Below are positions 25,949 to 62,679 of a stretch of 64,000 nucleotides of DNA, one piece after another. Each line of letters opens with the position of its first letter. Position 1 is the stretch's first letter. The stretch is from Hemileia vastatrix (taxonomy: Eukaryota; Basidiomycota; Pucciniomycetes; Pucciniales; Zaghouaniaceae), in the NCBI GenBank assembly GCA_030280995.1, contig JASXTE010000002.1, positions 32,006,683 to 32,070,682 of the forward strand. Reading direction: 5' to 3'. The position numbers and the translations under genes were made by a program. The notes beneath the pieces are model-generated. The model made no database searches and was not told the origin of the DNA. It saw only the letters and a list, made by a program, of their open reading frames with translations.

Positions 25949-27472
25949 TGTCACTGGACGACCTACGCCCAAGGTCAAAGATGTTCCTGAAAGTGAGATA
26001 AAAGGTTCAGATACTTCTTTGAAGCACAGAGGGATAGTTGGAGGAAGTGATTCGAAGATGACTCAAAGGAAGAACTACTGCTTCAAGTTATGTTCTAGAA
26101 GGATTCTAATATAATTGAACGGTAATATTAAAATTCTTAAGATCTCACGAAGGGTTGGAAACTCAACAATCAAAGATTTAGGATTTTGATATGATTATTG
26201 AGAAAATAAAGAAAGATACAATAATAATGTTTTTCACTTAGAGTTTTATCACTATTAACTATAAATACGTTTTATAATTTAATTCTAAGGAATGTTGAAC
26301 CAAAAACTCAGCCCTTTTTATATCCTTTACTCCTCCTCGCATTGACCTCATACCCATCCACTATTCCTGTCAGCCTAAATATCCTTAGGACTGAGTATTT
26401 ATTATGCTTAAAATAAGATAACCTTAAGTAAATTAAGCTTATATCTTAAAAATAAGGTTAAAATAATAATATATATTATTTTATTATATATATATATAAT
26501 TATTATTCTATTATATAACTTATAATAGTTTAAATAGCTTATCCATGGCCTAGAAATACTTATTAAGGTGTTAATGGAGTCATAATATACTTATCTTAAG
26601 TGATATGAAGTAATTATTGACATACATAAGCTTATATGTATACATAAATCTCATATTCAGTGAAATATGCAGTATATTATGTATATTTAGGTATATAAGT
26701 GGGTTTTAGCCCCTTAATAGCCTATAAACTTTGTTTTTCTGCTTATTTTAGGTCATATGAACAAAATCAGTGGACTCACAACGCCTACAGAAGCATAGAC
26801 ACCTATATCAGGCGCATACACCCAGTTTGGACAACTAAAATTACTTCCTTGGATGGTTATTCACGGATTTATGGGTTGGAAAGATATTTCTGGGTTAATT
26901 TTGATGCTTGGGGATGATATTGGGGGCTTGGACATTTTATTTGTTTCCTTTATATGCTTTTGGTTTCATTAAATCTCTTTTTGACTGTTTATTTTACCTG
27001 TTTCTTTATGGTATCCGCTTTTATCTAGTAGGACCATAAATAAACACTATTATATCATACTTATATACTAGACTATACTGAAAATTTGGCATACCACAAA
27101 CCATTTAAAATATATCCGCTACACCTGGACCCTCCTCACTAACATCCATTAACCCCTTAATCCTTCACTAACCATTCCGTCCATGCTCACTACCCGCTTA
27201 ATAACTCACAGACATTTCATAAACCTTTTAATGTACTATTATATTAACTATTGCGCTGTGCATCGCTTATTGGAAAAAAACTAAGACACACTATTGAGAG
27301 ATTGACTAATTTAGATTTAGAGTTTTAGGCTAGCGCAATTGAATAGCAAGTACACAGAGGAAAGTCGCAGTTGCTATGGAGAGTTTCTTTCTGCGCTTCG
27401 AGTATGGATTTGAACCCTTTAGTATTGATTTAATGAGCAACTTTTTACTCGAGTGTCACGTGGCACATGACA
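25949..27472 (-). repeat. 5' LTR of element 3, split by an insertion
   Basis: The parts 25949-26367 and 27089-27472 together align with 18203-19035. The inserted 0.7 kb is described separately. Confidence 0.85.
26368..27088. mobile_element. Insertion in element 3 LTR, LTR-like
   Basis: Relative to the sister LTR, about 720 nt are added between CCACTATTCC and GCATACCACAAACC. It starts TGTCAGCCTAAATATCC and contains AGGACTGAGTAT. A second sequence beginning TGTCAGCCTGTACATCCCC with AGGACTGAGTAT lies at 49683. This suggests solo LTRs of one family. No clear target duplication is visible, and no ATG ORF is convincing. Confidence 0.55.
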
Positions 27473-27907
27473 AGTGATAGCATTCATAGCTGAGTGAAGT
27501 TTCTTCCTAGTAGAGATGTGTTTTATTGATTTTGGTAGAGGTTTTAGGCAATGAGTGGGAAGTGGGAATGCAACACCAAATGAGCAGGTGGGGTGTGTAG
27601 ATAGAATTAAATGTTATGTGTTTGAAACCAAAATTAAGTATCATAGAGTGAAGAGACACATAAGGATAGAATTCACAATTATATGTCATGTGACTTGATT
27701 ACAAATTAATCATGGATGTGATGAGTTTGGGATCAGGAATTAGGAATGGAAATTGGTGTATAAGAGGGAGGATAATTCATTATTGTGAAATACTTATCCT
27801 TTAGCCCCAGGGCTAGTGGATAAGAATATTCCACAATTAATAATTTCTGATCCTGGAAAAAAAATTTCTGATCCCTAATTGAAGATCCCTGAACATTGAT
27901 ACCCCCT
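27473..27907 (-). mobile_element. Relic D: truncated 5' end of a Harbinger element
   Basis: Matches the reverse complement of the left end of element A (32013-32430) and the 46670-47098 end of B, from the start-codon region of the transposase to the terminal GATACCCCCT. It includes the hairpin-forming CTAGCCCCAGGGCTAG (near 27807). Cut off exactly at the element 3 LTR end. Confidence 0.8.
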
Positions 27908-32012: not shown

Positions 32013-32392
32013 AGGGGGTATCAATGTTCAGGAATCCACAATTAGGGATCATGAATTTTTTTTTCCGGGATCAGACATTATTAATTGCGCAAGATTCTTA
32101 TCCACTAGCCCCAGGGCTAGTGGATAAGGAATCCACGATAATGCATTATCCTGCCCTTTATACCCCAATTTCCATTCCTAATTCCTGATCCCAAACTCAT
32201 CACATCCATGATGGATTTGCAAGAAAGGCACATGACTCATAATTGATGATTCCATCCTTAAGTCTTTCTTCACTCTATGCTACTTAATTTTGGTGGCGAA
32301 CACTTAAGAATTTTTTCTATCTACACATTCCAACTGCACATTTGGCGGTGAATTCCCACATCCCTCATCACATAACCCTTCCACCGGCAACA

Positions 32393-33616
32393 ATGAAACA
32401 CCTCTCAACTAGGAAGCTACTTCACTCAACAATGAATGCTATTACTTTTCTTTTAGTTCTTTACTATAAATCTGACTCTGATTTGGAAGATGCTTTAGCT
32501 TATATGTGTTTTCTTTCAAAAAAGGGTTAAATCATCACCAGGGGGCCAAATCTTTATCATGATCCCCGATATGATCTGGCCTCCATTCTCAACATTCTTC
32601 ATTTAAACTTCACCCAACTTTTTAGAACTTCTCCCGACTCTTTCTTCAAACTTTATAAACTCATCTCGGATCATCCTATCTTTCATAACAATTCCCATAA
32701 CCAACAGTGTAATCCTGCCATCCAACTTGCTGTTGCACTATATCGCTTTGGCTCAAATGGAAACGGTGCTGCTGTAAGACTTTTGGATAATCTCTTTAAC
32801 ATAGGATATGGTACTGTGATATTATACACCAAGCGCTGTATGATTTCTATCCTTTCCCTCAAGTCTCAAACACTTTCTTGGCCGACTCCAGAACAGCGAC
32901 TTGGATCCTCTCAAGTAATGCATGATGAAGGTTTCCCTGGCTGTGTAGGATTTGTTGATGGCACAACTATACCTTTGAGTAAAAATCCTGCTCATGATGG
33001 CAACCATTATTTTGATTGCAAAAAAAGGTTTCTTCAAAATCTTCTCCAATTTCTCATCCTTCATAAACTAGCTTTTTATCATCTTTCTAGATACTGTATT
33101 GCCATTCAACTTGTATTCGATGTCAATAAAAAATTTATTGCTTTTCATAGTGGCTGCCCTGGCTCATGTCATGACTCTTCTGTCTTCCAAAGAATGAGGA
33201 TTTCTCAAACCCCTGACTCATACTTTGACCAATCTCAGTACCTCCTTGCAGACTCAGCATATGCAAGTGGGAAGTACATTATACCTGCTTTCCGTGGTGC
33301 AACCTTAGAAAATGACCCCAAAACTAAATTTAATTATCACCTTGCCCAATCAAGAGTACAAATTGAACATGCTATAGGTATTTTAAAGGGACAATTTTCT
33401 AGTCTTTGGGAGCTCAGAATCCAATTTCAAAAAAAATTGGAGATCAAAACTGCAAATCATTGGATCATGACTAACATTATACTCCACAAAATCCTAGCTG
33501 ATTTAAAGGATGAGTGGAATGATCTTATGAAGAAGAGGATCCTGAACCAGCACCGGCTCTTTCTTCCCTTGAATCACAAAACATTCATTCAACCGGCATA
33601 CGCTCTATCATTATGA
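32393..33616 (+). pseudogene. Harbinger (HARBI1-like) DDE transposase, one nonsense codon
   Basis: The transposase would cut and paste the element. From ATG 32393 one frame runs to TGA 33616, interrupted only by TAA at 32528-32530 (B has TAC, Tyr). Motifs: helix-rich N-terminus; FPGCVGFVDGTTIPL with the first catalytic Asp; DGNHYFDCKKR; GCPGSCHDSSVF; LLADSAYASGKYIIPAF with the second Asp; SRVQIEHAIGILKGQF with the Glu. This is the DDE_Tnp_4/HARBI1 nuclease order. A 63-nt GT-AG intron (33028-33090) is inferred because splicing restores the usual FD-KKRY run. Spliced length is about 386 aa, normal for the family. Confidence 0.85.
33028..33090 (+). other. Intron within the transposase, length divisible by three
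   Basis: GTTTCTTC...TTTCTAG. Removal joins KKR to YCIAIQLVFD, the expected family motif. Because it is 63 nt without a stop, retention does not break the frame. Confidence 0.7.
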
Positions 33617-34783
33617 CTATTACTCTCCAACATTTCTCTTCACCACCCTTTTAAATTATTTTTTTTACTCTCCAAATGTCCTCTTTGTGTACTTCATTCA
33701 CTTGTTTTGGTATTTTGGTTTTTTGCATATTCATTTTTTTTTGGAATTTATGGTGAAGATCTTTTTTTTGGATGGCTCATTGGTTTTCTTTCACCAGCTC
33801 AACATGAAATTGCATATTTTCTGAAATCACATATTTTTTCAGTGATTTTTTTTTCATTCATCCATCATATCCTTTTCCTATTCTCCTCCAACATCCCTCA
33901 AACAGTTTGGTTTCATTCATTTTGTCATCTCATCTCTCCGGGTAAGTCATTTTAGTCTTTTTTTTGATTTTTTGATTACTAATTATAATTTTTTTTGTTT
34001 TTTTCTGTTTATTTTATTTTTTTTATCTAATTTTTTTTTGTAAGTAGTTATTTTGGATTTCAATGGTATAATTAACCTTTTTTTTCTCTCCCTCTTTACT
34101 TTCTTTTTTAGCTCCATCACCCTACTCTTCATCCCTCATTGGCATGGTCATTATCCCCCCTTTCCCTTATTTCACTTTTTTTTGGCTCCATTTCATTGAA
34201 ACACATACATTGCACATTCTTTATGCATTTCACTTACTCCATATTCAATTTCCCCACAATTCCAACATCAATCTTTCTCACTCTATTTTTCCTACTTTTC
34301 AATCAAGGTAAGTTTCATCTCCTTTTTTTCATGCCTATATGATATCTCATTCCTGTTATGAAAACTTTATACTTAAATATATGTATGACTCTTATCTGGA
34401 TAACAGTGAACTTATTAAACTCATTTTGATCTCGTCTTCCTTACCACTTTTCAAGTTTTTGCAAATTTTTTAAAAACAGACTCAGAATTAGGGTTAGGTT
34501 TATTCAAATCTTATGTTCTTTTTACTAAAGATTCTTCTGAAAGCTACCTTACATTTCCTACAAACAGATTTGAATTTGATTCAGTGGTTGCTGAGATATT
34601 GACCGTTAAGGTTGAGCCTTTTTTTCCCAATTTAAATTATTATTTCATTTTTTATGTAACATATTAGGGTTAGGTTTATTTATCTCACATTTCCTTTAAC
34701 TGAAGATTCTATTTAAGCATATCTCTCATTTCCTAGAAACAGGTTTGAATTAGGTTCAGTGGTTGCTGAGATTTTGACCTTTG
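33617..34783 (+). other. Intergenic region of element A between transposase and oxygenase
   Basis: Pyrimidine-rich with long T runs. A 67-codon frame (34139-34342) is almost identical in B (45386-45589), but its leucine/phenylalanine-rich content reflects base composition. 34487-34783 holds an imperfect duplication: ATTAGGGTTAGGTTTATT, AACAGATTTGAATTTGATTC-like and GGTTGCTGAGAT blocks occur twice about 175 nt apart, and both copies are also in B. It may contain 5' exons or introns of the oxygenase. Confidence 0.5.
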
Positions 34784-34785
34784 AA

Positions 34786-35046
34786 CACCACACAATATGG
34801 GGGGCGGACTTGCTAGCGAGTCCGCAACCTTGGACCCAAACTCACCACAGGTTGAACACACATTGAGCTATTGATAAAGGAACCATACAATCAGGGATGA
34901 ACACCACTCAGCACAAGAGTTTTAGGTGGGTGTTCAAGTAGAGTTCAGTATGGGTTCAGTATGAGTTCAGTCTGAGTTCCATCTGAGTTCCATCTGAGTT
35001 CAGGTTGAGGACTTGCTATCAAGTCCACCCCCTATATTGCGTAGTG
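34786..35046. mobile_element. CACTA-like MITE (261 bp) with 3-bp target duplication
   Basis: Ends are CACCACACAATATGGGGGG and, inverted, CACTACGCAATATAGGGGG, each followed by a GGACTTGnTAGCnAGTCC inner palindrome. GAA flanks both sides (34783-34785 and 35047-35049). Element B has the uninterrupted site (GACCTTTGAAGTTGAGCC), which proves insertion. CACTA-type ends and a 3-bp duplication are hallmarks of En/Spm elements. 34941-35006 is six copies of an 11-bp unit (GAGTTCAGTAT variants). Confidence 0.85.
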
Positions 35047-35177
35047 GAAGTTGAGCCTTTTTTCCAAATTTCACTTGTCTTATTTCACATTTTTATATTG
35101 CATATTTAGAGGATAAGGATTCTGAAACTCTTATATGATTATTATCTAGGCATTTCAATTATATAGGCATATATTCA

Positions 35178-35795
35178 TTGCTCAAGAATATCACTAAAGC
35201 TCAAAAAGATGAAGATTTTTGCATATGGGACACTCTACCTTCCTTTAACTCTTTTCTTGCTCATTGACTCAAAAAGCTCTGTAATAAAGCATTTGAAAAA
35301 AATCATGAACTTGCAACCAAAGTTAGAATACCAAATTGGTGTGACTCCAAATGGGAAGATATCACCCACGAATATCTTTTATTTTTTAATGTTATTATCA
35401 CTTATTCTGGATTTCACAATAGGATTCATATTGATAGGAATGACACCGATTTTCTAACTTTTGGTATATTCTCATATATCAATCCAATAACTGGCCAACC
35501 AATACCATCTCCAGCTAAAAATAAAGTACATGGTTTATATTTTACAGACCACCGGTACATCATTGATTTTGTTTTGGAAAATGTTATCATTGAAACTATT
35601 TGGAATTCTTCTAAGGATAATCATCAAACTACCAAAGCTCCTCCTGGTTTGGAATCCTGTCAAGATTTCACACATTTTGGTTGCTCATTTCAAATCAGTC
35701 ATAACTTGATTCAAAGCATCAACAAGGCAAAGAAAGAAGTTAAAGTTAATCGATTTAAAAAAACTTTATCTAGATCCAAAAAGTATGGGGATTAG
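35178..35795 (+). pseudogene. TET/JBP-like 2OG-Fe(II) oxygenase relic of element A
   Basis: The same protein as the open frame in B (44196-44813). Readable here are FHNRIHIDRNDTDFLTFGIF with the HxD iron ligands, ITGQPIPSPAKN, DHRYIIDF, WNSSKDNHQTTKAPPG and GCSFQIS, ending KKYGD then TAG. A TGA in place of the FQ part of LAFQLNKL (near 35265) breaks the frame. It sits between transposase and the repeat block on the transposase strand. Confidence 0.65.
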
Positions 35796-35889
35796 AGTTG
35801 TCTTCGAAAATTTTATATTTTTTCATAAATTTTTAATAAATATTTTTTATATATCAATTTGCTCAAATAAAGTGATGAGCCAATGACCT

Positions 35890-36075
35890 TTGGTTGTATA
35901 ACAGGTAATCATGATAACATTTATTTGTTTTATGGGGTTCCTCTAGCCTATACCTGTGGAAAGTCCAAAACTTTTGTTTCTAGATTTGATCTGCATTTTA
36001 GCTTGAGGAATTGTCATTACTTTAAACTAGGGAAATTGATATATGTTTGATATTTATTTAATAATCTATGTAATT
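35890..36075 (+). other. Conserved short frame downstream of the oxygenase
   Basis: A frame with CITGNHDNIYLFYGVPLAYT and LHFSLRNCHYFKLGKL is open here and in B (43899-44102), differing by scattered amino-acid changes. It could be a 3' exon or just conserved element DNA. I do not recognise it. Confidence 0.3.
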
Positions 36076-36089
36076 ATATTTAATTTAGA

Positions 36090-36515
36090 TGACTTCCACC
36101 CCTTACTTCAATAAAATGCAGGGGGGGTATTGCCAAATTTTCAAATCTGACATTCAAAATTGAAGACTTGTAAAAATTTTGGTGATACCCACCCCTTGCT
36201 TCAATAAAATGTAGGGGGGGGTATTGCCAAATTTTCAAATTTAACATGTAAAATTTTTGACTTGTAAATATTTTGGTGAAAATTTTTTGGTGATAACCGT
36301 CCCTTACTTCAATAAAATACAGGGGGGGTATTGCCAAAATTTCTTATAAGACTTGTGAAATTCATAATTTGTAAGAATTTTGGGGATACCGGTAAAATGC
36401 AGGGGGTAGTAAAGCCAAATTTTCATATAAGAATTTCAAGATTAATGACATGAAATAATTTTGGTGATACCCACCCCTTACTTCAAAAAAATTCAGGGTT
36501 GGGTGATTGTCAAAT
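36090..36515. repeat. Five imperfect tandem repeats (about 80-110 bp) in element A
   Basis: Each unit has CACCCCTTACTTCAATAAAA, then GCAGGGGGGGTATTGCCAAA and TTTTCAAAT, then a variable AT-rich tail ending in TTTTGG(T/G)GATACC. Units start near 36095, 36187, 36298, 36385 and 36470. The block lies between the convergent gene ends, so it may act as a shared terminator or as transposase-binding sites. Confidence 0.8.
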
Positions 36516-36676
36516 TTTCAAAGGAGACATGAAAATTTTATTTAAAAAAAGAATATTTAACATTAAAATACAAAAATTCAAGTAATGATTGATAGAGTAA
36601 TGAAATACAGGAAATTATTGTAAATTTTATGTACAAATAAATATGAACAGTTGAATTGTGAGAGAAATAAAGCAAA

Positions 36677-38026
36677 CTAGTCATCAGAAAATTTCTTTAA
36701 ACATTCAATTTCCTCAACAGATTTATTAGCTTTAACACCTTCTATCAAGAAATCTTTCTTTTTGGAATTTTCTTAATGATCAAACTTATATTTCATCTGC
36801 TCTAATAGGTTTTGATGTCTGAGTGTTTTCTCCTCTTTTTTTGATTTTTCAATAATTAGAGTTAACTCAAACTTCTTCTCCTCCAAATCTTAGGCCCAAT
36901 CATCCTTCCGTAAAGAGAGCTCGTACTTCCTCTCTTCCAAATCTTGTAGCCTATCATCCCTCCTTAAAGAGAGCTCATATTTCTTCTTTTCAAAGCTTAG
37001 AGTCTCTTTAGCAATTTTCACTTTTTTTAGAGTGATAATAAAAATTAACATAAAGTAGAAGAAAAGCAGAGTAAAGTAATAAGAGGTATGGTATCACTTA
37101 CCAGCATCATGTTTCTCTAGAAATTGTTCCATAGAAAAAAAGGGGGTTTTTGATGAAGTATCACTTTTTTGTCTTCTTTGGGATTTGAAATTTAGACTAC
37201 TTGAAGCCCTACGCTTCTTTTTCAAGGTCATATTTTCCTCCTCATCATTGTCACTACCTTCAGACTCAGTTGATTGAGGATCCTGGGTTTGTTCGTCAGC
37301 CTTTTAAGAAATAAAAAAAAATAAGTAAATAAAAAAATAGAATTGATAAGATAAAAGAAAAAAGAAACAGACTTGAGTTAGTTTTTGTTGGGTTAAACTG
37401 CCAATAGGATCTACAGAAAAGCTATCTAGATATGTCTCATTCAAATGAGGGGAGGCTTTAGTGGAGGAAGAGGATGGGAAAAGATTTGCTTCAACATCAT
37501 GTTTGGAGATAGGATCTTCTCCATTCAATATGTTTACAGGATTAACATCGGCTTGCTCTCCATAAATTGCATCCATCTCTTTAAAGTAAGGAAATAAAGA
37601 TTCAAGTTTATTGTCCATGAATTTGATGCACTTAATTATATTGATGTTGGTAGCCCCAACATTAGTGGAAGATGAAAGAGCCTTTGCCTTCTTGTATTTG
37701 GCTTGGTAATGCTTGAAGCGTTCAGACATCTGTTTAGGCAAAATATCAATCCTTCCCTTGGTCTTATTCCGCAATTCATTTACCATTAGAAGATAGCCAT
37801 TAACTTTTAATGCTGGGGGCTGTCCGACTTTAGTCGCATACTCAGTACCAAAACAAGAATCATAGTTAGATTTAGTTTTCAGCTAGTTAATAAGAATGAG
37901 ATGATCATCTTTTTTTAATTGAACGGTCTTGGATTTCTTGGCTGAGCAGGGGAAAGAGGGAGTAATGGGATTTGAAGAACAACTGGGGGAAGGCTGTATT
38001 TGAGAAGATCTATGATGACGAGGCAT
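36677..38026 (-). pseudogene. Myb/SANT-like DNA-binding protein with coiled coil (ORF1-type), element A copy
   Basis: In PIF/Harbinger elements a Myb/SANT-like partner binds ends and helps the transposase. Start MPRHHRSSQIQPSPS at 38026. TAG (37883-37885) replaces the Trp after LIN. After it come ELRNKTKGR, LPKQMSERFKHYQAKYKKAK, then FPYFKEMDAIYGEQADVNPVN. An intron (37372-37301) leads to the acidic/basic linker and EQFLEK, and a second donor is at 37101. The acceptor (near 37029) has lost its CTAG. The coiled-coil exon has two CAA-to-TAA stops compared with B (near 36890 and 36773). Confidence 0.8.
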
Positions 38027-38337
38027 GTTGAGATATTTGAAGATGAAAAGGAGAAGAAATAAATAGATGAGATGGGGAGGGGTTTTGAACGGATAGAATG
38101 AATAGACAGGATGGAAGTGCACAGCAAGGTAGGGAGGCTGGCACATCCAGAAAGTTGTCCAAGATGTGGTTATGAAAAATTGAGAATAAAAATGTCAGAT
38201 AGAGGTGAACATTGACACGTAAAGTATCTAATAACCCAATTATTAGCAAAAATAATTGCGGAAGATAATTGGGGTATGCAGATTATTTTCTGCAATTAAA
38301 TTAATTGCTGTTCCCTGAACATTGATACCCCCTATTA

Positions 38338-39413
38338 AGTTCAGAGTTACTCTGAGAATCCAAAAGATGCTCCAGAATAAAGTCCATAATTTCAAATTTA
38401 ACATCCTCCTCCAAGAATTCATCTTCTGAACTCAATGGAGCACCCAGAAAATAATCTTCCTCTAAGAGAAATATATCCAACACAGACTCTTGCTGATCAT
38501 AAACTGATCTTAAAGAAACATCTTCATCCAAAAATCCATTATCTAAACATGAAGAAACCGTATCATCATGAACATCCAATTTTTCCTTCCCACAGAGCTC
38601 ATCCACCTTTGAAAAGATACACTGATCATCAAGTGTGTACATATCCAAAACATCAAATGAAGCACATTCTTGAGATCTATTGATGTCATCTGTTAAAGAA
38701 ATAAAAATTTCTGAAACATCACAAACATCATCTTCTCTCAAAGTGGGTGATTCCAAAATTTCCACTGTAGCTGAATTTTCTTCCAATTCTTCCTGAACCT
38801 TTCCATCCATTTAATTTTCATTTTCAGGTTCCACATCTTTTTAAACAATGGTTTCAAGATTCCCCAGAATAGCCTTCTTCAAAACACCTATAGCAGGAAG
38901 CCTACTTTCTCCATTTATAAGTGTCTTCATCAGCCCAGCCTTTAACAGAAATCCCTGAACCTCCTTTTTGACCTCCAGACTCATGTCACTCCAAAATAAA
39001 CTCTTGGCCTCCATTTCATGAGAGGACATACCATTATAAACTAGATAATCCATAACCTCTGCAAATTCCTCCATAACTTTACCATACTGATACAAAGAAG
39101 TTACATCACCATCCATTTCCCATTTTTTAGCAATGCCATAAAGATCATCCATTAAAAACACAGTGGGCCACCTTCAGATAATTTCCATCTTTAACTGTCC
39201 CCAATCCTTAATCCTATATCCCTCCATCCTAAGAACATCCTTCACAACCTCTCTATCATCAATGAAGAAGATCGCCTGCTTTACCCTATTCAAATCAGAA
39301 GCTCCATCCACATCAGGAGCAGCTTCAAAGATCTCCAAAAATAACCTTGCCTCCTCTACAAAGCAAATTTGCCCTTTCCATGACTTGATCCTGACCATCC
39401 TAACTATTTCCAA
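38338..39413 (-). pseudogene. Retrotransposon gag, truncated by element A
   Basis: Three pieces in one frame (39174-39413, 38841-39161, 38338-38810) separated by stops. The first two are helix-rich, with WKGQICFVEEARLFLEIFEA and FLMDDLYGIAKKWEMDGDV, in the style of a fungal gypsy capsid. The third is very acidic, with DLYT/DDQC-like repeats. The frame ends where the Harbinger terminus begins. Upstream are a primer-binding site and LTR in the same orientation. The family is uncertain; it may be related to elements 4 and 5. Confidence 0.65.
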
Positions 39414-40719: not shown

Positions 40720-40837
40720 AATTGTTCTTTGACTTGGTTCATAAAATTATTTCCAGATAGTATTTGGGATTCCTTTACTTGGTTGATTATCTTTTGAATT
40801 TATTTACTTAATTATATATGAAATAAAATGAAAATTT

Positions 40838-41600
40838 GGTAATCTTGACCCCCTTCCAGAGTAAATTGTAGTGGGGGTATCTCCAAATTTTCAAATAAGA
40901 TGTGTTAAATTTTTGACTTGAAACAACTTGGCATTAAAGATGAAGGAAAAAATTGAAAAAACTAGTGATCAGACATTTTATTCAGCAGTCAATTTCCTCA
41001 ACTGACTTATTAGCTTTAATGCAGTCTATCATGAAAACTTTCTAAAAAAAATTGTAATTAAATATGTGCAAAATGAAAAAACTAGACATCAAACATTTTC
41101 ATTAAGCATTAAATTTCATACCAAAACCAGTGGAAGGTGAAAGAGTCTTAGCCATCTTGTATTTGGTTCAATAGTGCTTGAAGTTTTCAGACATATTTTT
41201 ATGCAAAAGATAAATCCTTCGCTTTGTCTTATTTTGTAATTCATTTGCAATTAGAAGATATAGATTGACTTTTGATGCATAGTTGAATTCTCAGTACCAA
41301 AACAAAAATCATAATTAGTTTAAATTTTCAGCCAGTTGATAAGTATGAGATGATCAACTTTTTTTAGATGAATGGTATTTGATTTCTCAGCCAAGCAGGG
41401 AAAGAGGGAGTAATGGGATTTAAAGAACAACTGGGGGAAGGATGCCTTTAAGAAGATCAATGATGACAAGGCATGTTAAGATATTTGAAGATGAAAAGGA
41501 GAAGAAAAAACAGATGAGATGGGGAGGTTTTCTGAATGGATAGAATGAAAAGATAGGATAGGATTGAATAGCAAGGTAGGGAGGCTGGCAGATCCATAAT
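40838..41600 (-). mobile_element. Relic C (left part): decayed Harbinger copy
   Basis: Contains one degenerate repeat unit (CCCCTTCCAGAGTAAATTG, GTGGGGGTATCTCCAAATTTTC), parts of the Myb/SANT gene (rc of GAAAACTTCAAGCACTATTG and the LILINWLK region near 41320-41360) and its 5' end. It is interrupted at CCATAAT by element B and resumes at 47099. Confidence 0.75.
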
Positions 41601-41951
41601 AGGGGGTATCAATGTTGACCGATCCGCAATTAAATTAATTGCGGAAAATAATCTGCATACCCCAATTATCTTCCGCAATTATTTTTGCTAATAATTGGGT
41701 TATTAGACACTTTACGTGTCAATGTTCACCTCTTATCTGACATTTTTATCCTCAATATCTGATAACCACATCTTGGACAACTCTCTGGATATCCCAGCCT
41801 TCTACCTTGCTGCGCACTTCCATTCTCATCCCATCCTGTTCATTCTATCCGCTCAGAATTTCTCCCCATTTCATCTATATGATTCTTCTCCTTTTCATCT
41901 CGCTATCTCATCTGCTTGTTTCTGCTCCTTTTCATCTTCATTTATAATAAC

Positions 41952-43348
41952 ATGCCTCGTCATCCTAGATCTTCTCAAAGGCAGCCATCACCCAGTTGTT
42001 CTTCAATTCCCACTACTTCCTCTTTCCCCTGCTCAGCTGAGAAATCAAAGACCGTTCAATTAAAAAAAGATGAACATCTCATTCTTATTAACTAGCTGAA
42101 AACCAAATCTAACTATGATTCTTGTTTTGGTACTGAGTATGCCACTAAAGTAGGACGGCCCCCCACATCAAAAGTTAATGGCTATCTTCTAATGGCAAAT
42201 GAATTACGCAATAAGACCAAGGGAAGGATTGATCTTTTGCCTAAACAGATGTCTGAACGCTTCAAGCATTATCGAGCAAAATACAAGAAGGCAAAGGCTC
42301 TTTCATCTTCCACTGGTTTTGGGGTTACTGACATTGATATAACTAAGGGTATAAAATCCATAGTTAATAAACTTGATTCTTTATGTCCTTACTTTAAAGA
42401 GATGGATGCAATTTTTGGAGAGCGAGCCGATGTTAATCCTGTAAACATGTTGGATGGAGAAGATCCTATCTCCGAACATGATGTCGAAGCAAATCTTTTC
42501 CCATCCTCTTCCTCCACTCAAGCCTCCCCTCATTTGAATGAGACATATCTAAATAGCTTTTCTGTAGATCCTATAGGTGATTTAACCCAACCAAATCTAA
42601 CTCAGGTCTGTTTCTTTTATCTTATCAATTCTATTTTTTATTTACTTATCTTTTTCTTATTTCTTAAAAGGCTGATGAAAAAACCCAGGATCCTCAATCA
42701 ACTGAGTCTGAAGCTAGTGACAATGATGAGGAGGAAAATGCTACGTTGAACAAAAAGAGAAGGGCTTCAATTAGTCTAAATTTCCTCTACCAAAGAAGAC
42801 GAAAAAGTGGTACTTCATCACAAACACCTTTTTCTTCGATGGAACAGTTTTTAGAGAAACGTGATGCTGGTAAGTGATATCATACCTCTTATTACTTTAC
42901 TCTGCTTTTCTTCTACTTTATGTTAATTTTTATTCTCACTCTAGAACAAGTGGAAATTGCTAAAGAGACACTGAGCTTTGAAAAGAAGAAATACGAGCTC
43001 TCTTTAAGGAGGGATGACAGAGTACAAGATTTGGAAGAGAGGAAGTATGAGCTCTCCTTACGGAAGGATGATCAGATCCAAGATTTGGAGGAGAAGAAGT
43101 TTGAGCTCTCTTTACAGAAGGATGGTAGGGCCCAAGATTTGGAGGAGAAGAAGTTTGAGTTAACTCTTAGTATTGAAAAATCCAAAAATAAGGAAAAAAC
43201 ACTTGAGCATCAAAACTTAATGGAACAGATGAAGTATAAGCATGATCTCCAAGAAAGTTCTAAAAAGAAAGATTTCTTGATCGAATGCATTAAAGCAAAC
43301 AAATCTGTTGAAGAAATAGAAAGTTTAATGAAATTTTTTGTTGACTAG
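41952..43348 (+). CDS. Myb/SANT-like plus coiled-coil protein, element B copy (three exons, one in-frame TAG)
   Basis: Exons 41952-42605, 42671-42869 and 42945-43348 with GT-AG introns of 65 and 75 nt give one frame of 418 aa, interrupted only by TAG at 42093-42095, where relic C has TGG (Trp). Domains: basic Ser/Pro-rich N-terminus; Myb/SANT-like region (about residues 40-150) with LPKQMSERFKHYRAKYKKAK and CPYFKEMDAIFGERADVNPVN; acidic linker; SMEQFLEKRDAGEQ; then a coiled coil with three and a half 18-residue repeats (KKYELSLRRDDRVQDLEE type); ending VEEIESLMKFFVD. In Harbinger elements this partner binds DNA ends and recruits transposase. The TAG may make it a pseudogene or give a shorter product. 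Confidence 0.75.
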
Positions 43349-43488
43349 TTTCTTTTATTTCTTTCACACTTCATGTGTTCATATTTATTTGTACATAAAT
43401 TTTACAATTATTTTCTGTATTTCTTGAAATATCGTATTTTAATGTTAAATATTCTTTTTTTAAATAAAATTTTCAAGTCTCCTTTGAA

Positions 43489-43905
43489 AATTTGACAATC
43501 CCCCACCCCTGGATTTTTTTGAAGTAAGGGGTGGGTATCACAAAAATTCTTTCATGTCATGAATCTTGAAAGTTTTATATGAAAATTTGGCTTTACTACC
43601 CCCTGCATTTTACCGGTATCCTAAAAATTCTTACATGTCAAGAATTTCACAAGTCTTATAAAAAATTTTGGCACAACCCCCCATGGATTTTATTGAAGTA
43701 AGGGACGGGTATCACAAAAATATTTACAAGTCAAAAAACTTCTATACCTGTTTAAAAAAATTGGCAATACTCTCCCCTGCATTTTATTGAAGCAAGGGGT
43801 GGGTATCACCAAAATTTTTCTAAGTCATCAATTTCACATGTCAGATTTGAAAATTTGGCAATACCCCCCCTGCATTTTATTGAAGTAAGGGGTGGAAGTC
43901 ATCTA
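43489..43905. repeat. Tandem repeat block of element B
   Basis: Counterpart of 36090-36515 in A, read inverted. Five units with CCCCTGCATTTTATTGAAG and AAGGGGTGGGTATCACCAAA-type cores lie between the convergent gene ends. Confidence 0.8.
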
Positions 43906-44102
43906 AATTTAATATAATTACATAAATTATTAAATAAATATCTAATATATATCAATTTCCCTAGTTTAAAGTAATGACAATCCCTCAAGCCAAAATGCAG
44001 ACCAAGTCGAGAAACATAAGTTTGGGACTTTCTACAGGTATAGGAAAGAGGAACCCCATGAAACAAATAAATGTTATCATGATTACCTGTTATACAACAC
44101 AA
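43899..44102 (-). other. Conserved short frame downstream of the oxygenase, element B
   Basis: 67 codons with CITGNHDNIYLFHGVPLSYT and LHFGLRDCHYFKLGKL, matching the frame at 35890-36075 in A with mostly conservative changes. No recognised domain. Confidence 0.3.
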
Positions 44103-44195
44103 GGTCGATGGCTCATCACATTATTTGAGAAAATTGATATATAAAAAATATTTATTAAAAATTTATGAAAAAATATAAAATTTTCGATGACAACT

Positions 44196-44855
44196 CTAAT
44201 CCCCATACTTTTTGGATCTAGATAAAGTTTTTTTAAATTGAATAACTTTACCTTCTTTCTTTACCTTATTGATTCTTTGTATCAACTTATTACTGATTTG
44301 AAATGAGCAACTGAAATGAGTGAAATCTTGACAGGATTTCAAACCAGGAGGAGCTTTGGTCGTTTGATGATTATCCTTAGAAGAATTCCAAATAGTTTCG
44401 ATGATACCATTTCCCAAACCAAAATCAATGATGCACCGGTGGTCTGGAAAATATAAACCATGTCCTTTGATTTTAGCTGGAGATGGTATTGGGTGGCCAG
44501 TTATCAGATTGATATATGAGAATATTCCAAAAGTAAGAAAATTGGCATCATTCCTATCGATATGAATCCTATTGTGGAATCCAGAATGAGTGATAATAAC
44601 ATTAGAAAATAAAAGATATTCGTGGCTGATATCTTCCAATTTGGAGTCACACCAATTCGGTATTCCAACTTTGGTTGCAAGTTCATGATTTTTTTCAAAT
44701 GCTTTATTACAGAGCTTGTTGAGTTGAAAAGCAAGAAAAGAGTCAAAGGAAGGTAGAGTGTCCCATAAGCGAAAATCTTCATCTTTTTGAGCTTTAGTGA
44801 TATTCTTCACCAACGAATATATGCCTATATAATTGAAATGCCTAGATAATAATCA
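44196..44855 (-). CDS. TET/JBP-like 2OG-Fe(II) dioxygenase carried by a Harbinger transposon
   Basis: The open frame 44813-44196 (205 aa from a TTG; true start upstream) continues upstream through HFNYIGIYS to a probable acceptor (ATCTAG, near 44843). Motifs: KAQKDEDFRLWDTLPSFDSF; NKLCNKAFEKNHELA; then FHNRIHIDRNDANFLTFGIF with HxD (residues 84 and 86); ITGHPIPSPAKI; LYFPDHRCIIDF; IIETIWNSSKDNHQTT with the second His (149); FSCSFQISNKLI. This is the layout I know from fungal Tet-like 2OG-Fe(II) oxygenases (Tet_JBP superfamily), which oxidise 5-methylcytosine or related bases using 2-oxoglutarate and iron. Neighbours are the transposase remnant upstream and the repeat block downstream. The N-terminal exon is not resolved. 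Confidence 0.65.
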
Positions 44856-46085
44856 TATAAGAGTTTCAGAATCCTTATCCTCTAAATATGCAATATAAAA
44901 ATGTGAAATAAGACAAGTGAAATTTGGAAAAAAGGCTCAACTTCAAAGGTCAAAATCTCAGCAAACACTGAACCTAATTCAAACCTGTTTGTGGAAAATG
45001 AAAGATATGCTTTAGTAGAATCTTCAGTTAAAGGACATGCGATTTAAATAAACCTAACCCTAATTTGTTACATAAAAAAATGAAATAAAAATTTAAATTG
45101 GGAAAAAAAGGCTCAACTTTAACGGTCAATATCTCAGCAACCACTGAATCAAATTCAAATCTGTTTGCAGGAAATGAAAGGTAGCCTTCAGGAGAATCTT
45201 CAGTAAAAAGAAAATTAGATTTGAATAAACCTAACCCTAATTCCGAGTCTGATTTTTAAAATTTTACAAAAACTTGAAAAGTGGTAATGAAGATGAGATC
45301 AAAAGGAGTTTTATAAGTTCACTGTTATCCAGATAAGAATCATACATATATTTAAGTATGAAGTTTTCATAAAAGGAATGAGATATCATATAGGCATGAA
45401 AAAAAGGAGATGAAACTTACCTTGATTGAAAAGTAGGAAAAATAGAGTGAGAAAGATTGATGTTGGAATTGTGGGGAAATTGAATATGGAGTAAGTGAAA
45501 TGCATAAAGAATGTGCAATGTATGTGTTTCAATGAAATGGAGCCAAAAAAAAGTGAAATAAGGGAAAGGGGGGATAATGACAATGCCAAGGAGGGATGAA
45601 GAGTAGGGTGATGGAGCTAAAAAATAAAGTAAAGAGGGAGAGAAAAAAAAGGTTAATTATACCATTGAAATCCAAAATAACCACTTACAAAAAAAATTTA
45701 GATAAAAAAAATAAAATAAACAGAAAAAAACAAAAAAAATTATAATTAGTAATCAAAAAATCAAAAAAATGAATAAAATGACTTACCTGGAGAGATGAGA
45801 TGACAAAATGAATGAAACCAAATTGTTTGAGGGATGTTGGAGGAGAATAGGAAAAGGATATGAGGGATGAATGAAAAAAAAAATCACTGACAAAATATGC
45901 AATTTCAGAAAATATGCGATTTCATGTTGAGCTGGTGAAAGAAAACCAATGAGCCATCCAAAAAAAAGATATTCACTATAAATTCAAAAAAAAAAATGAA
46001 TATGCAACAAACCAAAATACAAAACCAAGTGATTAAAGTACACAAAGAGGACATTTGGAAAGTATGAAAACATAAAAATTAAAAA
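44856..46085 (-). other. Intergenic region of element B
   Basis: Matches 33617-35177 of A without the MITE. It retains the duplicated ATTAGGGTTAGGTTTATT-type blocks and the polypyrimidine stretches. No convincing gene. Confidence 0.6.
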
Positions 46086-46718
46086 TTAAAAGGGTGAAGA
46101 GAAATGTTGGAGAGTAATTGCAGGCTTTTGACTCAAAGGGATGGTTGTGCCATCAACAAAACCTACACAGCCAGGGAAACCTTCAGCTTGCATTACTTGA
46201 GAGGATTCAAGTCGCTGTTCTGGAGTTAGCCAAGCAAGAGTTTGAGACTTGAGGGAAAGGATAGCAATCATACAGCGCTTGGTGTATAATATCACAGTAC
46301 CATATCCTATGTTAAAGAGATTATCCAAACGTCTTACGGCAGCACCATTTCCATTTGAGCCAAAGCGACATAGAGCAACAGTAAGTTGGATGGCAGGATT
46401 ACGCTGTTTGTTATGAGAATTGTTATGGAAGATAGGATGATTGGAGATGAGTTTATAAAGTTTGAAGAAAGAATCGGGAGAAGTTCTAAAAAGTTGTGTG
46501 AAGTTTAAATGAGGAATGTTGAGAATGGAGGCCAGATCATATCGGGGATCATGATAAAGATTTGGCCCCCTGGTGATGATGTAACGCTTTTTGGAAAGAA
46601 AACACATATAAGCTAAAGCATCTTCCAAATCAGAGTCAGATTTATAGTAAAGAACTAAAAGAAAAGTAATAGCATTCATTGTTGAGTGAAGTAGCTTCCT
46701 AGTAGAGAGGTGTTTCAT
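46086..46718 (-). pseudogene. Harbinger transposase of element B, catalytic half deleted
   Basis: From ATG at 46718 the frame MKHLSTRKLLHSTMNAITF is open through EGFPGCVGFVDGTTIPLSQKPA, then jumps to ITLQHFSSPF. Compared with A, about 650 bp are missing between CCTGC and ATTACTCTCC, removing the second Asp and the Glu. Where A has a stop (32528), B has Tyr. B therefore needs transposase from another copy. Confidence 0.85.
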
Positions 46719-47098
46719 TGTTGCCGGTGGAAGGGTTATGTGATGAGGGAAGTGGGAATTCACCGCCAAATGTGCAGTTGGGGTGTGTAGATAGAAAAAA
46801 AACTTAAGTGTTTGCCACCAAAATTAAGTAGCATAGAGTGAGGAAATACTTAAGGATGGCATCAGCAATTATAAGTCATGTGACTTTCTTAAAAATCCAT
46901 CATGGATGAGATGAGTTTGGGATCAGGAATTAGGAATGGAAATTGGGGTATAAGAGGCGGGATAATGCATTATCGTGGATTTCTTATCCACTAGCCCTGG
47001 GGCTAGTGGATAAGAATCTTCTGCAATTAATAATGTCTGATCCCGGGAAAAAAAATTCCTGATCCCTAATTGCGGATCCCTGGACATTGATACCCCCT

Positions 47099-47283
47099 AA
47101 TGTTTTCCAAGATGTGGTTATAAAAAATTGAGGATGAAAACTTCAAATAGAGGTGAAAATTGACACATAAAAGTTTTAATAACCCAATTATTAGCAAAAA
47201 TAATTGCATAAGATAATTGTGGTATAATGATTTTTATCCATAAAAAATTTAATTGCAGATTGGTCAACATTGATACCCCCTCT
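47099..47283 (-). mobile_element. Relic C (right part) with Harbinger terminus
   Basis: Continues the sequence broken at 41600 (TTTTCCAAGATGTGGTTAT, AATAACCCAATTATTAGC) and ends TCAACATTGATACCCCCTC at 47283, the outer terminus of the older copy. Confidence 0.8.
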
Positions 47284-51262: not shown

Positions 51263-54200
51263 ATGTCTTCAATTTATTCAGGATTCAAATTATTATGGAT
51301 GCCCTCATTTTTTGGGGTAGCAGAGGCTGATCACTCTAATGTTGTAATCTCTCCTCAGGATGAGATCCCGGATTGCAATAGGTCAGCTCACTTGGAGATA
51401 ATTCAAGTGGATTCTCAATTATTTTCTGTTAATATTACTTTGGAGTGCAAATACGTTTTGGACTTTTCTATATGTTTATTGAATTTACCTGGTTTTTCTA
51501 TTAAATTTAAAAATGGTGAAAAAGGCAAAATGGGCCAAATTAGGTTGGATAAAAATTGGAAGGGTATGTTTTGTGACCTCCACCAAGAGGTTAAACTGCA
51601 ATTATCTCCTTCTATTTTGGGCCTCCAGCAAGAGGTTAAACTGCAATTATCTCCTTCTATTACGGACCTCCAGCAAGAGGGTAAACTGTGAAAATCTTAT
51701 CAAAATCCAATAAAAAATCTCAGTATAATTAAAACACTAAAAAATAATTTTTGTGAAAATTCATTTCCGGTTCTCCAGCAAGAGGTTAAACTGCCAACTT
51801 TCTTTATGGGTGATTTACTGTTGGATAAGGGAAGCAAAGGTGTTGGAAAATCTTTTTATAAATTAGACGAGGGAAAGGAGAAAAGGGTAAAATTTAAAAA
51901 TGAAATAAAATATTTTTCTAATTTTTCTTATTCCGATTCTGGCAATGAAGAAGATTCATTTGATGAAAGTTTTAATGGTGATACAAAAGAAAATGTTTTA
52001 CCTCAAGTTAATTTAGATGTGGACGCAGCCAAATATAAGAAAGTAGCAAATAAAGTTCGACCTATTAATGAACCGCTACCTGCTGAATTAAATCCACCTT
52101 TGAGAAGACCAAGGTTATCAAGAGATCCTTATGAAAGTCCCTTGGTAAAGAATCCGCCTGAATTTTCTGAGACGTCAAGAATCACTTTTGAGAGACTGGG
52201 TGTTGTTAATTTTGGACCTGATGGTTGGTTGTCTGGAGAAGAGAAGAAGTTGTTGTTGGATGTGATGGTCAAGCGAGAGAAGGCCATTGCTTTTGTAGAA
52301 GAGGAGAGGGGTGTGTTGAAGCATTCCTATGGGGAGCCTTACAAGATTCCTGTGGTATGTCATGAACCATGGCAGCAGAAACCGATTCCTATTCCAGCTG
52401 CATTGAAAGAAGCTTATATCGAAGTTGTCAGAGAACGGATACGCACTGGACTCTATGAGCAATCAACGTCAAGTTATTCTAGTCTGGTATTTTGTATCAA
52501 GAAACCGAATGGCAAGCTTAGAGTTGTTCATGATCTTAGGGAATTAAATAGGGTTACAATAAAGGATGCTGGGATACCGCCTAGTGCTGAGGAGTTTGTT
52601 GAAGCGTTTGCAGGGAGAGTGTGTTATGGTTTAGGAGATATTATGGGTGGATATGATGAGAGAGAGTTACATCCGGACTCAAGGGCTCTCACTACATTCG
52701 ATACGCCACTAGGACGTTTACAGTTAACAAGATTACCTCAAGGAGCAACAAATTTGGTTGCAGTTTATCAAGCTCAGATGGCTTGGATCCTTCAAGAAGA
52801 AATTCCACAATATGCTGGAATCTTTATAGATGATGGAGGAATTAAGGGACCAATAACCGACTATGATAACCAGGTGTTGGAAGAGAATCCCGGGATACGC
52901 AAATTCATTTAAGAGTTTGCAATTACTTTAGAAAGAATCTTGTTTCGAATTGAAGAGGCTGGTTTAACTATTTCAGGTTCAAAATTTTCATGTTGTGTGC
53001 CAGCCTTAGAAATATTAGGCCATGTGGTATGTAGAGAGGGTAGGATTATGTCCAAGAAGAAAGTTAACAAAATTCAGTCCTGGCCAAGACCCAAGAATAC
53101 GACCAAAGTTAGAGGGTTTTTAGGCGTTTGTGTATATGTTAGAATGTTTATCAAGGACTTTTCTTCATTGGCAGCTCCATTGAGACGGTTAACGAGAAAG
53201 GATGCAGACTGGGAGTGGGATGAAGAGTGTGAGAAGGCGTTTGTGAAGTTGAAGGAGGTTGTAGGGAAGGATTTAGTCCTGCACAAGTTGGATTATGGAA
53301 AAGAAGCTGGCAAAATTTATTTAGCAGTTGATTCAAGTCAGGTTGCAGCTGGGGCGGTTTTGTCTCAGATGGATAAAGCTGGTTACATCAGGCCAGTTAG
53401 GTATGAATCTGTAGTATTTACTGAGGTCGAATCAAGATATTCTCAACCAAAATTGGAATTATGTGGTGTGGCGAAAATACTGAAGAAACTTCAGCATATT
53501 TTGTGGGGGCAACATTTTGAGTTGCAAGTGGATGCGAAATCGTTAATCCAGATGATTAATTCCCCAAGTTTACCGAATGCACCCATGACGAGATGGGTAG
53601 CTTTTATTCAACATTTTTCGTTTGATTTAGTTCATAAGCCTGGCAAGACTTTTACTATGCCAGATGGTTTATCAAGGAGACCACCCACTGAAGAAGATTC
53701 AGACTCAGAAGAGTTCAATGAAGATATACCTATTATCAAAGCCAGCACTAAAGGAGCTGAAGACTTTCCATACCTCCCCCATGAGGTTAAACTGGCAGGA
53801 CTATTGTGTTTAGATTATGGTGTTGATGACCTCCACCAAGAGGATAAACTGGAAAATAGTTTTTATGTTAATAAAGGTGTTGGAAAAGGTGTAGATAAAT
53901 TCGGCAGAGAGGAGGTAGAAGAATATGTGGTGTATGTAGAGGAAGATGGATTGGTAGTGTGGGATAGTAGTAAATTAAGGAATGGTGTATATGTTGGAGA
54001 ATTAGAGAATTTAAATAAAAAGGTGGATAAAGAGAAAGAGGTATTTTCAAATACGGTTTACGAAGGATCCAAAGGTTCAGAAGAAAAACGACGACATAGC
54101 TCGATTAAAGATTTATTTAGGGGTCAACAATTATTGGCTCATTCATGTGCAGGAGATATTGGTGATAGAGAAGTCCCTATTGATGTTATATTAATCGATT

Positions 54201-55486
54201 TTCAAGATGAAGTCTGGGGTCAGACTGGTTTTTATTTTTTGTTAGTCAAATATTTGTTGACTTTAGAGAGGCCAGAAGATTGTGAAGACAATGAATGGGT
54301 GGCTATCAAGAGGAAGTCATCTACGTTTTACCTATCTGGTCGACGTTTAATGAGGAGAAGGTATCCAAATCCTCAAGTAGTTATAACTCAAGAGAAGGGG
54401 CAAGAATTAGTTTTGAAATCACTGCATGAAGATCTTGGGCATAGAGGCGTTGGAGAAACATTTAGAAGAATTTCTGATCGATTTTGGTGGCCTGGAATGA
54501 AGATGGCTGTTAAACAGTGGGTTCAGTCATGCGAAGAATGTCAAAGACGAAGTTATTTAAGGCCAAAAGAACCTGGACGCGCAACCGGTGAATGTACACT
54601 CTTTGGGAGAGTTAGTTTAGATGCCGTTCATATAAAAGAGGGACGGTATAAATATTTAATTGTGGCCAGAGATGATTTATCTGGTTGGGTAGAGGCAGCG
54701 CCTCTTATTAATTTAACTGCCAAAAATGTGGCAGAATTTTTTTTGAATAATTGGGTGTATCGATATGGAGTGATGAAATTGGTGACGGTAGATGGAGGTC
54801 CTGAATTTGGGACAGAGTTTAAAGAGGCCGTATTGAAAGTTGGATCAAAGGTTAGGGTAGCAACCCCATATTATCCTGAAGCTGAAGGCATGGTTGAAAG
54901 AGGGCATCAAGTTATTAAGGATGCTTTGGTTAAAATGTGTGGGACAAGTGCCGAAAAGTGGAGGCACTATTTACCTTTAGTTTTATTTGCTGATCGAATC
55001 ACTGCCAAAAAGACGACCGGATTTTCACCTTATGAACTTGTTTTTGGACAGAAAGCAGTTTCACCGGTTGATTTAGAAGCTGAATCATATCTTGGAGTTG
55101 ACTGGGACACGGTCAAAACTACTGAAGAATTATTGTGTGCAAGAATGATGCAGCTAGAAAAGAAAGAAGAATATTTAGAAAAGGCATATTCGCGGATGAT
55201 GAAGATCCGAAATCAATCAGTCAGATATTGGGATGAGCGGTTGGCACATCGATTAAGGAAACCTTTGAAGCCAGGAGATATGGTCCTGGTGTATAATAGC
55301 AGTTTGGAAAGTCAGTGGGGAAAGATGTTTGCAGATAGGTGGAATGGACCGTATAAAATCAAGGAGCAAGTTTCCGGCGGTTCATATGTGCTAGAAGAGT
55401 TGGATGGAGTAGTATTAAAGAAGAGGGTAGCAGCCGATCAAGTGAAACGGTTCTATCCTAGAGGCACCAGGAGTGCCGAAGTCTAA
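51263..55486 (+). CDS. Element 4 polyprotein: reverse transcriptase, RNase H, integrase (two in-frame stops)
   Basis: A single frame spans 4.2 kb, broken only by TGA at 51689-51691 and TAA at 52910-52912. The first 140 residues are a spacer with 15-residue repeats ending in LQQEVKL. The reverse transcriptase has PVVCHEPWQQKPIPIP, KKPNGKLRVVHDLRELN and the catalytic box FIDDGG (FxDD instead of YxDD). After the second stop come FRIEEAGLTISGSKF, RGFLGVCVYVRMFIKDF and LTRKDADW, then RNase H with AVDSSQVAAGAVLSQ and PDGLSRRP. Integrase follows: HEDLGHRG...SCEECQRRS zinc domain, SLDAVHIKEG (first Asp), TVDGGPEFG (second), YPEAEGMVERGHQVI (Glu). C-terminal barrel KPGDMVLVYN. No protease is seen upstream. 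The second stop sits where element 5 has Trp. Confidence 0.85.
51577..51793 (+). repeat. 45-bp coding repeats containing the stem-loop motif
   Basis: Motif copies at 51577, 51622 and 51667 are spaced 45 bp, with a fourth at 51772. The encoded unit is LxQEVKLQLSPSI. Each has CCTC (or TCTC), a 6-nt loop, GAGG and (T/G)TAAACTG. Confidence 0.85.
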
Positions 55487-59215: not shown

Positions 59216-59807
59216 ATACCGCCTCAACCCAACCAGACAAATCATCCCTGGCAACAATCAATTATTCATACCTGCCCTCTTTAATATGGAAAGCATCCAG
59301 ACTGACTCTTCCAAACACATTTGTTTCTCCAGTAGTACGGACAACCTCTTTAGGTTTCAAGTGACTTCTTCTTTGAAATTCTTCACAAGATTGAACCCAA
59401 CCCTGTACAGCCAACTTCATACCTGGCCCCAAAAATCTATCTGCTACACTTCTATAAGTCTCTCCAAAGCCTCTATGACCAAGGTCTTCATGCAAAGACT
59501 TAAACAACAACTCTTGAACCTTATTGTGAGTCATCACTACTTGAGGATTTGGATGCCTCCTCCTCATCAACCTCCTTCCTGACACATAGAAGCCAGGACT
59601 CTTCTTCTTTATTTCTACCCAAGTATCATCATCATAAATTTCTGGGCTCTCAAAGGTTATCAGATATTCAACCATAATAAAATAAAACCCAGTCAGACCC
59701 CAGTTCTCATCTTCAAAATACAAAAAAACAACATCCAAGGGTACAACCTTTTCATCAAAATCTCTAGTGTACACATGAGCAACAGGACCAGCCCATCCAG
59801 GACACAA
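59216..59807 (-). pseudogene. Integrase N-terminal part of element 5, truncated
   Basis: Contains the pre-integrase region (DFDEKVVPLDVVFLYFED), SGRRLMRRRHPNPQV, the zinc domain HEDLGHRGFGET...SCEEFQRRS (the last Cys of element 4 is Phe here) and SLDAFHIKEG with the first catalytic Asp. A stop at 59262 and loss of similarity after ARDDLSGW (about 59216) remove the rest of the core. Confidence 0.85.
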
Positions 59808-59965
59808 ATCCCTGAATGTTGTTACATCCTTTTCCTTCCACTGAATTATAAGAGAATTCAGTTCAACGACAAAAACACCATTATTTAATTTTAAGCAATC
59901 CCAAACAACAGCCCTATCTTCATCAAAAAAAACATCCTGATCACCAGAATCAAGATCAGAACCAG

Positions 59966-60096
59966 CCAGTATAACATCTTGGTGGAGGAGAGAACAATCT
60001 TCCAGTTTATCCTAATGGGGGAGGAAAGAACAATCATCCAGTTTAGCCTCATGGGGGAGGAAAGAAAAATCATCCAATTTAGCCTCATGAGGTAGG
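59966..60096 (-). repeat. Four copies of the stem-loop motif in element 5
   Basis: On the minus strand at 59966-59988, 60002-60024, 60038-60060 and 60074-60096. The third has a perfect CCTC/GAGG stem with loop CCCCAT and CTAAACTGG. The others have one or more mismatches. They encode LPHEAKLDD repeats in frame 60012-60341. Confidence 0.8.
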
Positions 60097-61935: not shown

Positions 61936-62679
61936 ATTGGGGGGACTTAATTTTAGACCCCAATCTCACCACTCCAAAACTTTTCCACAATTCCAAATCT
62001 TCATTCTCACTTCCATCATGTAAATCTTCAAATATTGATTCATCTTCTGAATCACATCTTCTAAAATTGTGCAGTTTATGCTCATGCCGGAGGCTCAAAA
62101 ATTTATCTTGATGATCTTCTTTCTTCAAAAGCTTATGTAGTTTAACCTCATGATGGATGCCCAAAATTTGATCTTTCTGATCTTCACAAAAATAATTCTT
62201 TTCTTCTTTTTTGATTATCTTCATATTTTTTTCTTGATTTTCTTCAGTTATCTTAGAATTTTTCTTTTCTTTTCTTGAGTTTTCTTCCACCCTACAAAAA
62301 TAACCAGGGGTTTCCCCAATGCTCACATGCGTGGCCAAGGTAATGTTTTTGAAAGGTGTAGAAGAAACCCTAGTGGTGCACAATTAGGAGGACTTTCTTT
62401 TAGACGCCAATCTCACCACTCCACAGCTTTTCAGCATATCTTTCAATAAAGATATATAACCAATCTTTTTTTTGAACTTTAATTAAAAATAATTTAAAAT
62501 CTTGAGAGAGAACAGATACTTGACAAAAAACAAGAAGAATACTTGCAGAGAAGAGAAAAATTAAAAAGAGAAAGTTGAAAATCCACTTGGTATATCTCCA
62601 AGGGAGCTGACCTACTACAACCTGGGATTTCCTTATCTTGGGGAGAGGTAGTAGCACTAGGGAGATCAGCCCTCATCAC
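61877..62679 (-). pseudogene. Spacer between protease and reverse transcriptase of element 5
   Basis: Lysine/glutamate-rich frame 61877-62383 contains GIHHEVKLHKLL and LRHEHKLHNF, encoded by motif copies at 62138-62160 and 62071-62093. 62494-62679 contains SPQDKEIPGCSRSAPLEIYQVD, matching SPQDEIPDCNRSAHLEIIQVD of element 4. A sequence near 61910-61980 (CTTTCCCCATT, CACATG, CCAATCTCACCACTCCA) is repeated near 62305-62430. Confidence 0.65.

Follow-up and report, generated by a model that had tools for sequence, protein, structure and literature searches.

What is a gene for a TET/JBP-like dioxygenase doing inside a DNA transposon of a rust fungus, and does the transposon depend on it? The question arises from a window of 64,000 nucleotides of the coffee rust Hemileia vastatrix (the whole stretch of DNA analysed here, with a GC content of 33.4%), in which two related elements, referred to as A and B, occupy neighbouring positions together with the remains of two others, C and D (Table 1). 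The preliminary description of this DNA had placed a TET/JBP-like gene inside PIF/Harbinger elements in both A and B. That placement holds, and it is borne out by the PF20515 and DDE_Tnp_4 profiles, by the sequence motifs and by the TA-flanked ends. The elements are members of a high-copy, PHISTA-like PIF/Harbinger DNA transposon family of H. vastatrix with TA target duplication.

Table 1. Family elements in the window and the features found within them (position 1 is the first letter of the window).
Feature	Position	Strand	Remarks
Copy D, just the 5' end of an element	27469..27906	-	sequence match to the family
Copy A, 6,319 bp, older and decayed	32014..38332	+	exact ends, TA on both sides
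Transposase frame of A, downstream of in-frame stop (32528-32530)	32531..33616	+	DDE_Tnp_4, E=1.1e-21
TET-like gene of A	35139..35795	+	TGA at 35265-35267 interrupts the frame
Third gene of A, in-frame stop at 37883-37885	37304..38194	-	open reading frames
Decayed copy C, left part	40831..41599	+	right part 47100-47280; B sits inside C
Copy B, 5,496 bp	41602..47097	-	exact ends, TA on both sides
Third gene of B, downstream of in-frame stop (42093-42095)	42096..42749	+	Myb_DNA-bind_4, 16.9 bits (cut-off 27)
Further frame, with 54-bp repeats, in the third gene of B	42878..43348	+	coiled-coil-like by eye
Block of ~94-bp repeats in B, between the convergent TET and third genes	43441..43908
TET-like dioxygenase gene of B, main exon (open)	44196..44824	-	PF20515, E=4e-30
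Proposed first coding exon of the dioxygenase gene of B	45421..45505	-	ATG, then GTAAGT...AG intron of 596 bp; inferred gene model
Truncated transposase frame of B (245 codons between stops)	46086..46823	-	no Pfam match

The boundaries of the family are defined by ends common to A and B, GGGGGTATCAATG...CATTGATACCCCC. All ten elements that have both exact 13-base ends (A, B and eight elsewhere in the genome) are flanked by TA on both sides, and a 3-bp target match was found in none of the ten. Five further elements were fetched by their ends, and four of these have TA on both sides, the fifth (L075) having TT on the left. Within the window, B is inserted into the older copy C, because the flanks of C, joined minus one TA, align to the matching stretch of A; the right end of C is followed by TC, not TA. 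Relative to A, B has a 626-bp deletion in the transposase gene. Copy D passes directly from its 5' end into unrelated sequence, perhaps through a retroelement insertion.

In B, the dioxygenase gene is contained in a 218-codon open frame without an ATG (44196-44852, - strand). The frame is indeed open, as first described, at 218 codons and not the 205 originally given, and the motifs noted at that time, FHNRIHIDRNDANFLTFG (HxD) and NHQTT, are present. The GCSFQIS-like strand ascribed to both copies reads FGCSFQIS in A and FSCSFQIS in B. Joined through a GT...AG intron to an upstream exon, the gene would encode a protein of 237 amino acids from an ATG (45505-45421 joined to 44824-44196). At residue 181 the relatives have Gly. 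The profile search proposed in the preliminary description matched PF20515 (Pfam "Tet-like 2OG-Fe(II) oxygenase") in B with 105.8 bits (E=4e-30) and in the open piece of A with 68.3 bits (E=1.2e-18), against a cut-off of 27 and in both cases far beyond chance. Under a limit of E 10, a profile search with the two-row alignment returned 10 matches, of which the weakest has E=1e-24; all 10 come from other sources, those named being Puccinia triticina and P. sorghi, and all 10 carry PF20515. Each of the 12 aligned rows likewise matches PF20515, the iron triad HxD...H (H97, D99, H162) is invariant among them, and the catalytic residues are conserved to other rusts at about 40% identity. The assignment of the gene in A and B to the TET/JBP-like dioxygenases is thereby supported at the level of sequence. 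A single-sequence protein search with the TET protein gave no match at E 0.001, and no relative was found in the PDB by sequence, whether B or the 12-row alignment was the query. The two-sequence structure model was poor (pLDDT 33). A TET relative, CMD1, is among the 50 matches listed in each of the two structural comparisons; TET2, NgTET and CcTET were not seen among these 50, which excludes none of them. Support for a double-stranded beta-helix fold is weak.

The transposase of A has its nearest named proteins in P. coronata (52% identity) and P. striiformis. It is grouped with five P. coronata / P. striiformis rows in a tree (support 98/97), and six Austropuccinia rows adjoin this group (support 91/75); the rows of the tree are known by species and are not tied to the PHISTA families of PMC12730594. 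The in-frame stop in the third gene of B is replaced by Trp in all eight copies fetched, and in two uninterrupted copies Myb_DNA-bind_4 scores 18.2 and 18.3 bits without reaching the cut-off of 27. One copy elsewhere, L045, has a second transposase-like stretch, just 53% identical, that is possibly a nested or related Harbinger family.

The extent of the family was assessed in a genome of 747,610,610 bases (791 contigs). A 29-base word spanning the HxD motif has 1,177 exact matches (587 + 590), against none for a reversed-pattern control, and this count is a lower bound because the TET exon of L080, 97.9% identical, falls outside the listed word matches. The terminal 14-mer occurs 8,451 times (4,233 + 4,218; control 3 + 2). 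Because the active-site word is present 1,177 times, the TET gene is not one chance capture. The preliminary description had coupled such a capture in A and B with other copies that lack the gene, and copies of the latter kind do occur (L079 and L081). When the best 150 of 14,944 first-look candidates from a protein-similarity search with TET were scored, all 150 were at least 95% identical, and by hand count a stop is listed in 37 of them and none in 113.

The forms that make up this population were characterised in a sample of 16 TET copies on contig C2, the first eight in list order for each of two word variants. The transposase stretch missing in B is kept by 12 of the 16; the deletion of B itself is found in one (L047), and in three the stretch is missing otherwise. 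By tblastn, all three genes are free of stops over their matched stretches in a single copy of the 16, and 4 of the 15 alignable copies have neither a stop nor a net frameshift. Most of the sampled TET-bearing copies contain transposase sequence, the TET/JBP-like gene and, convergent to the latter, a third gene with a weak Myb/SANT resemblance. The junction left by the deletion in B has 131 exact matches in the genome (66 + 65; control 0); it is present in all 30 of the best TET loci and in 3 of 20 taken from the tail of the best 150. Among five B-class copies whose two ends are both exact, identity to B and to one another is 98.3-99.2%. B therefore represents a young subfamily of at least 131 copies, which has lost part of the transposase and kept the dioxygenase frame. 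This transposase-deleted form was also considered as the main amplified class and rejected, as it is a minority (1/16 and 3/20 in the samples, and 131 junctions against 1,177 TET words).

Copies of the family that lack TET are found in the same genome. L079 (6,093 bp) shares the family ends, is flanked by TA at both of them and has an open 454-codon transposase frame and a third gene with one stop, and the place of the TET region is taken by about 1.9 kb without a match to the TET profile. L081, of which the middle alone was fetched, is 98% identical there to L079 and is likewise without a TET match. Among the end matches listed for the first 10.3 Mb of contig C2, ten neighbouring +/- pairs lie 5-7.5 kb apart by hand count. 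Nine of these pairs are resolved, seven with TET (six by the word list and L080 by sequence) and two without (L079 and L081). Three short elements (434-448 bp) are made up largely of the family's two ends and are MITE-like. Since same-ended full-size and MITE-like copies exist without it, TET is an optional cargo of the family and is not needed in cis; a prediction would be that it perhaps acts in trans. TET-bearing copies, too, contain the opening ~350 bp of the TET-free L079 middle (2080-2430), at 98% identity in L052 and about 75% in L041, L044 and L046, a hint that forms of the family have exchanged sequence. The same L079 middle contains a 126-bp direct repeat (2440-2725), 100% identical, with a short inverted repeat inside.

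TET/JBP genes are reportedly carried by basidiomycete KDZ (Kyakuja, Dileera, Zisupton) DNA transposons, as Iyer et al. are said to have described in 2014. The transposase of such elements is of another class than that of the Hemileia family. Target duplications of 8 bp are given for Zisupton and for a cited Dileera family in passages of Kojima (2025; PMC12730594). The preliminary description knew of no Harbinger-linked TET gene, a view overtaken by that paper, which in December 2025 described TET-bearing Harbinger elements of rusts. In its available text, 15 TET+ Harbinger families with TA duplications are described, their hosts being five Puccinia species and Austropuccinia psidii, and the lineage is given the name PHISTA (PHIS transposons with TA TSDs); TET-minus relatives are noted as well, and rust transposons are stated to have taken up TET genes repeatedly. 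There, the transposon TET is proposed, without experimental test, as a means of escape from methylation.

The Hemileia family resembles the TET+ PHISTA elements of that text in its Harbinger-superfamily transposase, its TA duplication, its TET/JBP gene accompanied by a third protein and its Pucciniales host, as well as in having TET-minus relatives. It differs in host genus, as Hemileia is not mentioned in the available main text of PMC12730594. The third protein has a sub-threshold Myb/SANT match here, whereas the same source says that none of its third proteins has that domain. According to these passages, the Nuwa group of PIF/Harbinger, placed near PHISTA, has two genes, for a transposase and a Myb/SANT protein, and 3-bp target duplications without TET, in contrast to the 2-bp TA of the Hemileia family. 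For H. vastatrix race XXXIII, 2,954 Harbinger elements have been reported (PMC6472787), and the accessible part of that report makes no mention of a dioxygenase. A search of one open-licence literature collection found no paper on TET-bearing Harbinger elements of Hemileia, although others may exist. The kind of element is thus already known from other rusts; what is new beyond the PHISTA report is the host, the scale documented by the copy numbers, the transposase-deleted TET-bearing subfamily, and the coexistence of same-ended TET-plus and TET-minus full-size forms in one genome.

The pattern of mutation is what methylation of these elements would lead one to expect: C is changed at CpG, and most of all at TCG, at a much higher rate than elsewhere. 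Across nine B-class copies, C-to-T changes number 56/459 at TCG, 48/819 at other CpG and 83/15,786 at other C, the outlier row L031 supplying 40 of these 83. Between A and B, the corresponding values are 16/64, 19/146 and 179/3,813. The TCG bias agrees with the TCG hypermutation cited for Pucciniomycotina in passages of PMC12730594. TET-bearing copies are still hit at TCG, stops included, and are not spared; in 30 young loci, all three stops lie at codon 205, where TCGA has become TTGA.

Evidence for selection on the dioxygenase is slight. In the 30 young copies, TET has diverged by 0.44% and the flanks by 0.22-0.66% per 300 bp, with 1.6% in the last such interval. The changes observed in TET comprise 49 nonsynonymous, 34 synonymous and 3 stops, where the mutation spectrum predicts 56.7, 25.8 and 3.5, the loci having been chosen by protein similarity, which biases against nonsynonymous change. 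Among seven open copies, the median dN/dS of TET is 0.43 (10 non-independent pairs, 0.33-0.62), and it is 0.50 when broken copies are included (109 pairs); the third gene gives 0.41 for open copies (2 pairs) and 0.48 with broken ones. Between A and B, the value for TET is 0.44 (Fisher p 0.02, without CpG correction). From the mutation spectrum by itself, a value of about 0.55 is expected. Because both the dN/dS of TET and its change counts lie close to expectation, selection on the gene is weakly supported at best.

The explanation favoured here is that of a PHISTA-like family whose members share their products. Transposase from full-size copies would move every copy with these ends, MITE-like ones included. 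The dioxygenase, for which activity on 5-methylcytosine is inferred, would oxidise methylated cytosine on element DNA, and this oxidation would weaken methylation-based silencing. The enzyme would be a product shared across the family and not a cis requirement of each copy. Taken whole, this account has about an even chance of being correct. It is supported by the PF20515 matches, the invariant triad, the 1,177 words, the 131 junctions and the CpG/TCG excess, and by the same reading of the role of TET in passages of PMC12730594. It is weakened by the amplified TET-minus and MITE-like copies, the divergence of TET in step with its flanks, the dN/dS near 0.55, the TCG hits in TET-bearing copies, the small number of intact sampled copies (4/15) and the weak support for the fold.

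Several of these observations also fit a gene that is passive cargo, captured earlier and carried since because the transposase mobilises anything with these ends, with no present effect on transposition. The existence of TET-minus full-size and MITE-like copies, a TET divergence equal to that of the flanks in the young burst, and change classes not clearly different from expectation all accord with such a history. The uncorrected dN/dS between A and B, the conservation of catalytic residues to other rusts and the repeated uptake of TET by rust transposons described in passages of PMC12730594 argue against it, and it appears possible, though on balance improbable. The enzyme might alternatively act on a substrate other than 5mC (6mA, thymine or RNA) and have another role in the life of the element. 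According to the available text of PMC12730594, 6mA is a further substrate of CcTET, the product of CMD1 is a different one, and this type of TET may have other activities; CMD1 is, moreover, one TET relative among the structural matches listed. However, the bias of mutation towards CpG and TCG suggests that methylated cytosine is the mark these elements carry, and a different substrate seems quite unlikely. A fortuitous open frame, or a host gene that transposons have invaded, is scarcely credible: nothing was found in favour of either, and both are opposed by the PF20515 match at 4e-30, by the 1,177 word copies and by the position of TET in full-size copies, where exact ends flanked by TA enclose it.

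The coexistence of same-ended TET-plus full-size, TET-minus full-size, transposase-deleted TET-plus and MITE-like forms invites a further, rather doubtful reading. One genome would run the family both with and without an anti-methylation module, and the transposase-deleted TET-plus form would embody a division of labour, borrowing transposase and returning a shared demethylase. If this were true, the coffee rust would be a natural experiment on whether the TET of a transposon shields it and its kin from methylation and TCG hypermutation. Because same-ended TET-plus (more than 1,000 copies) and TET-minus elements are present in one chromosome-scale genome, the methylation and mutation of both are directly comparable.

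Some smaller features of the window may be added. The ~94-bp repeats between the convergent genes of copy A hold GGGGGTAT, the eight bases with which the end of the element begins, at 36123, 36217 and 36324, and these are perhaps internal transposase-binding sites. Between A and C lie open frames of 169 and 110 codons (38301-38810 and 38841-39173, both on the - strand), the first of which is acidic. In the rest of the window, the largest frames are retroelement pieces with reverse transcriptase, RNase H and integrase domains (14262-15308, 22631-23347, 51692-55486, 59262-60011 and 61024-61965).
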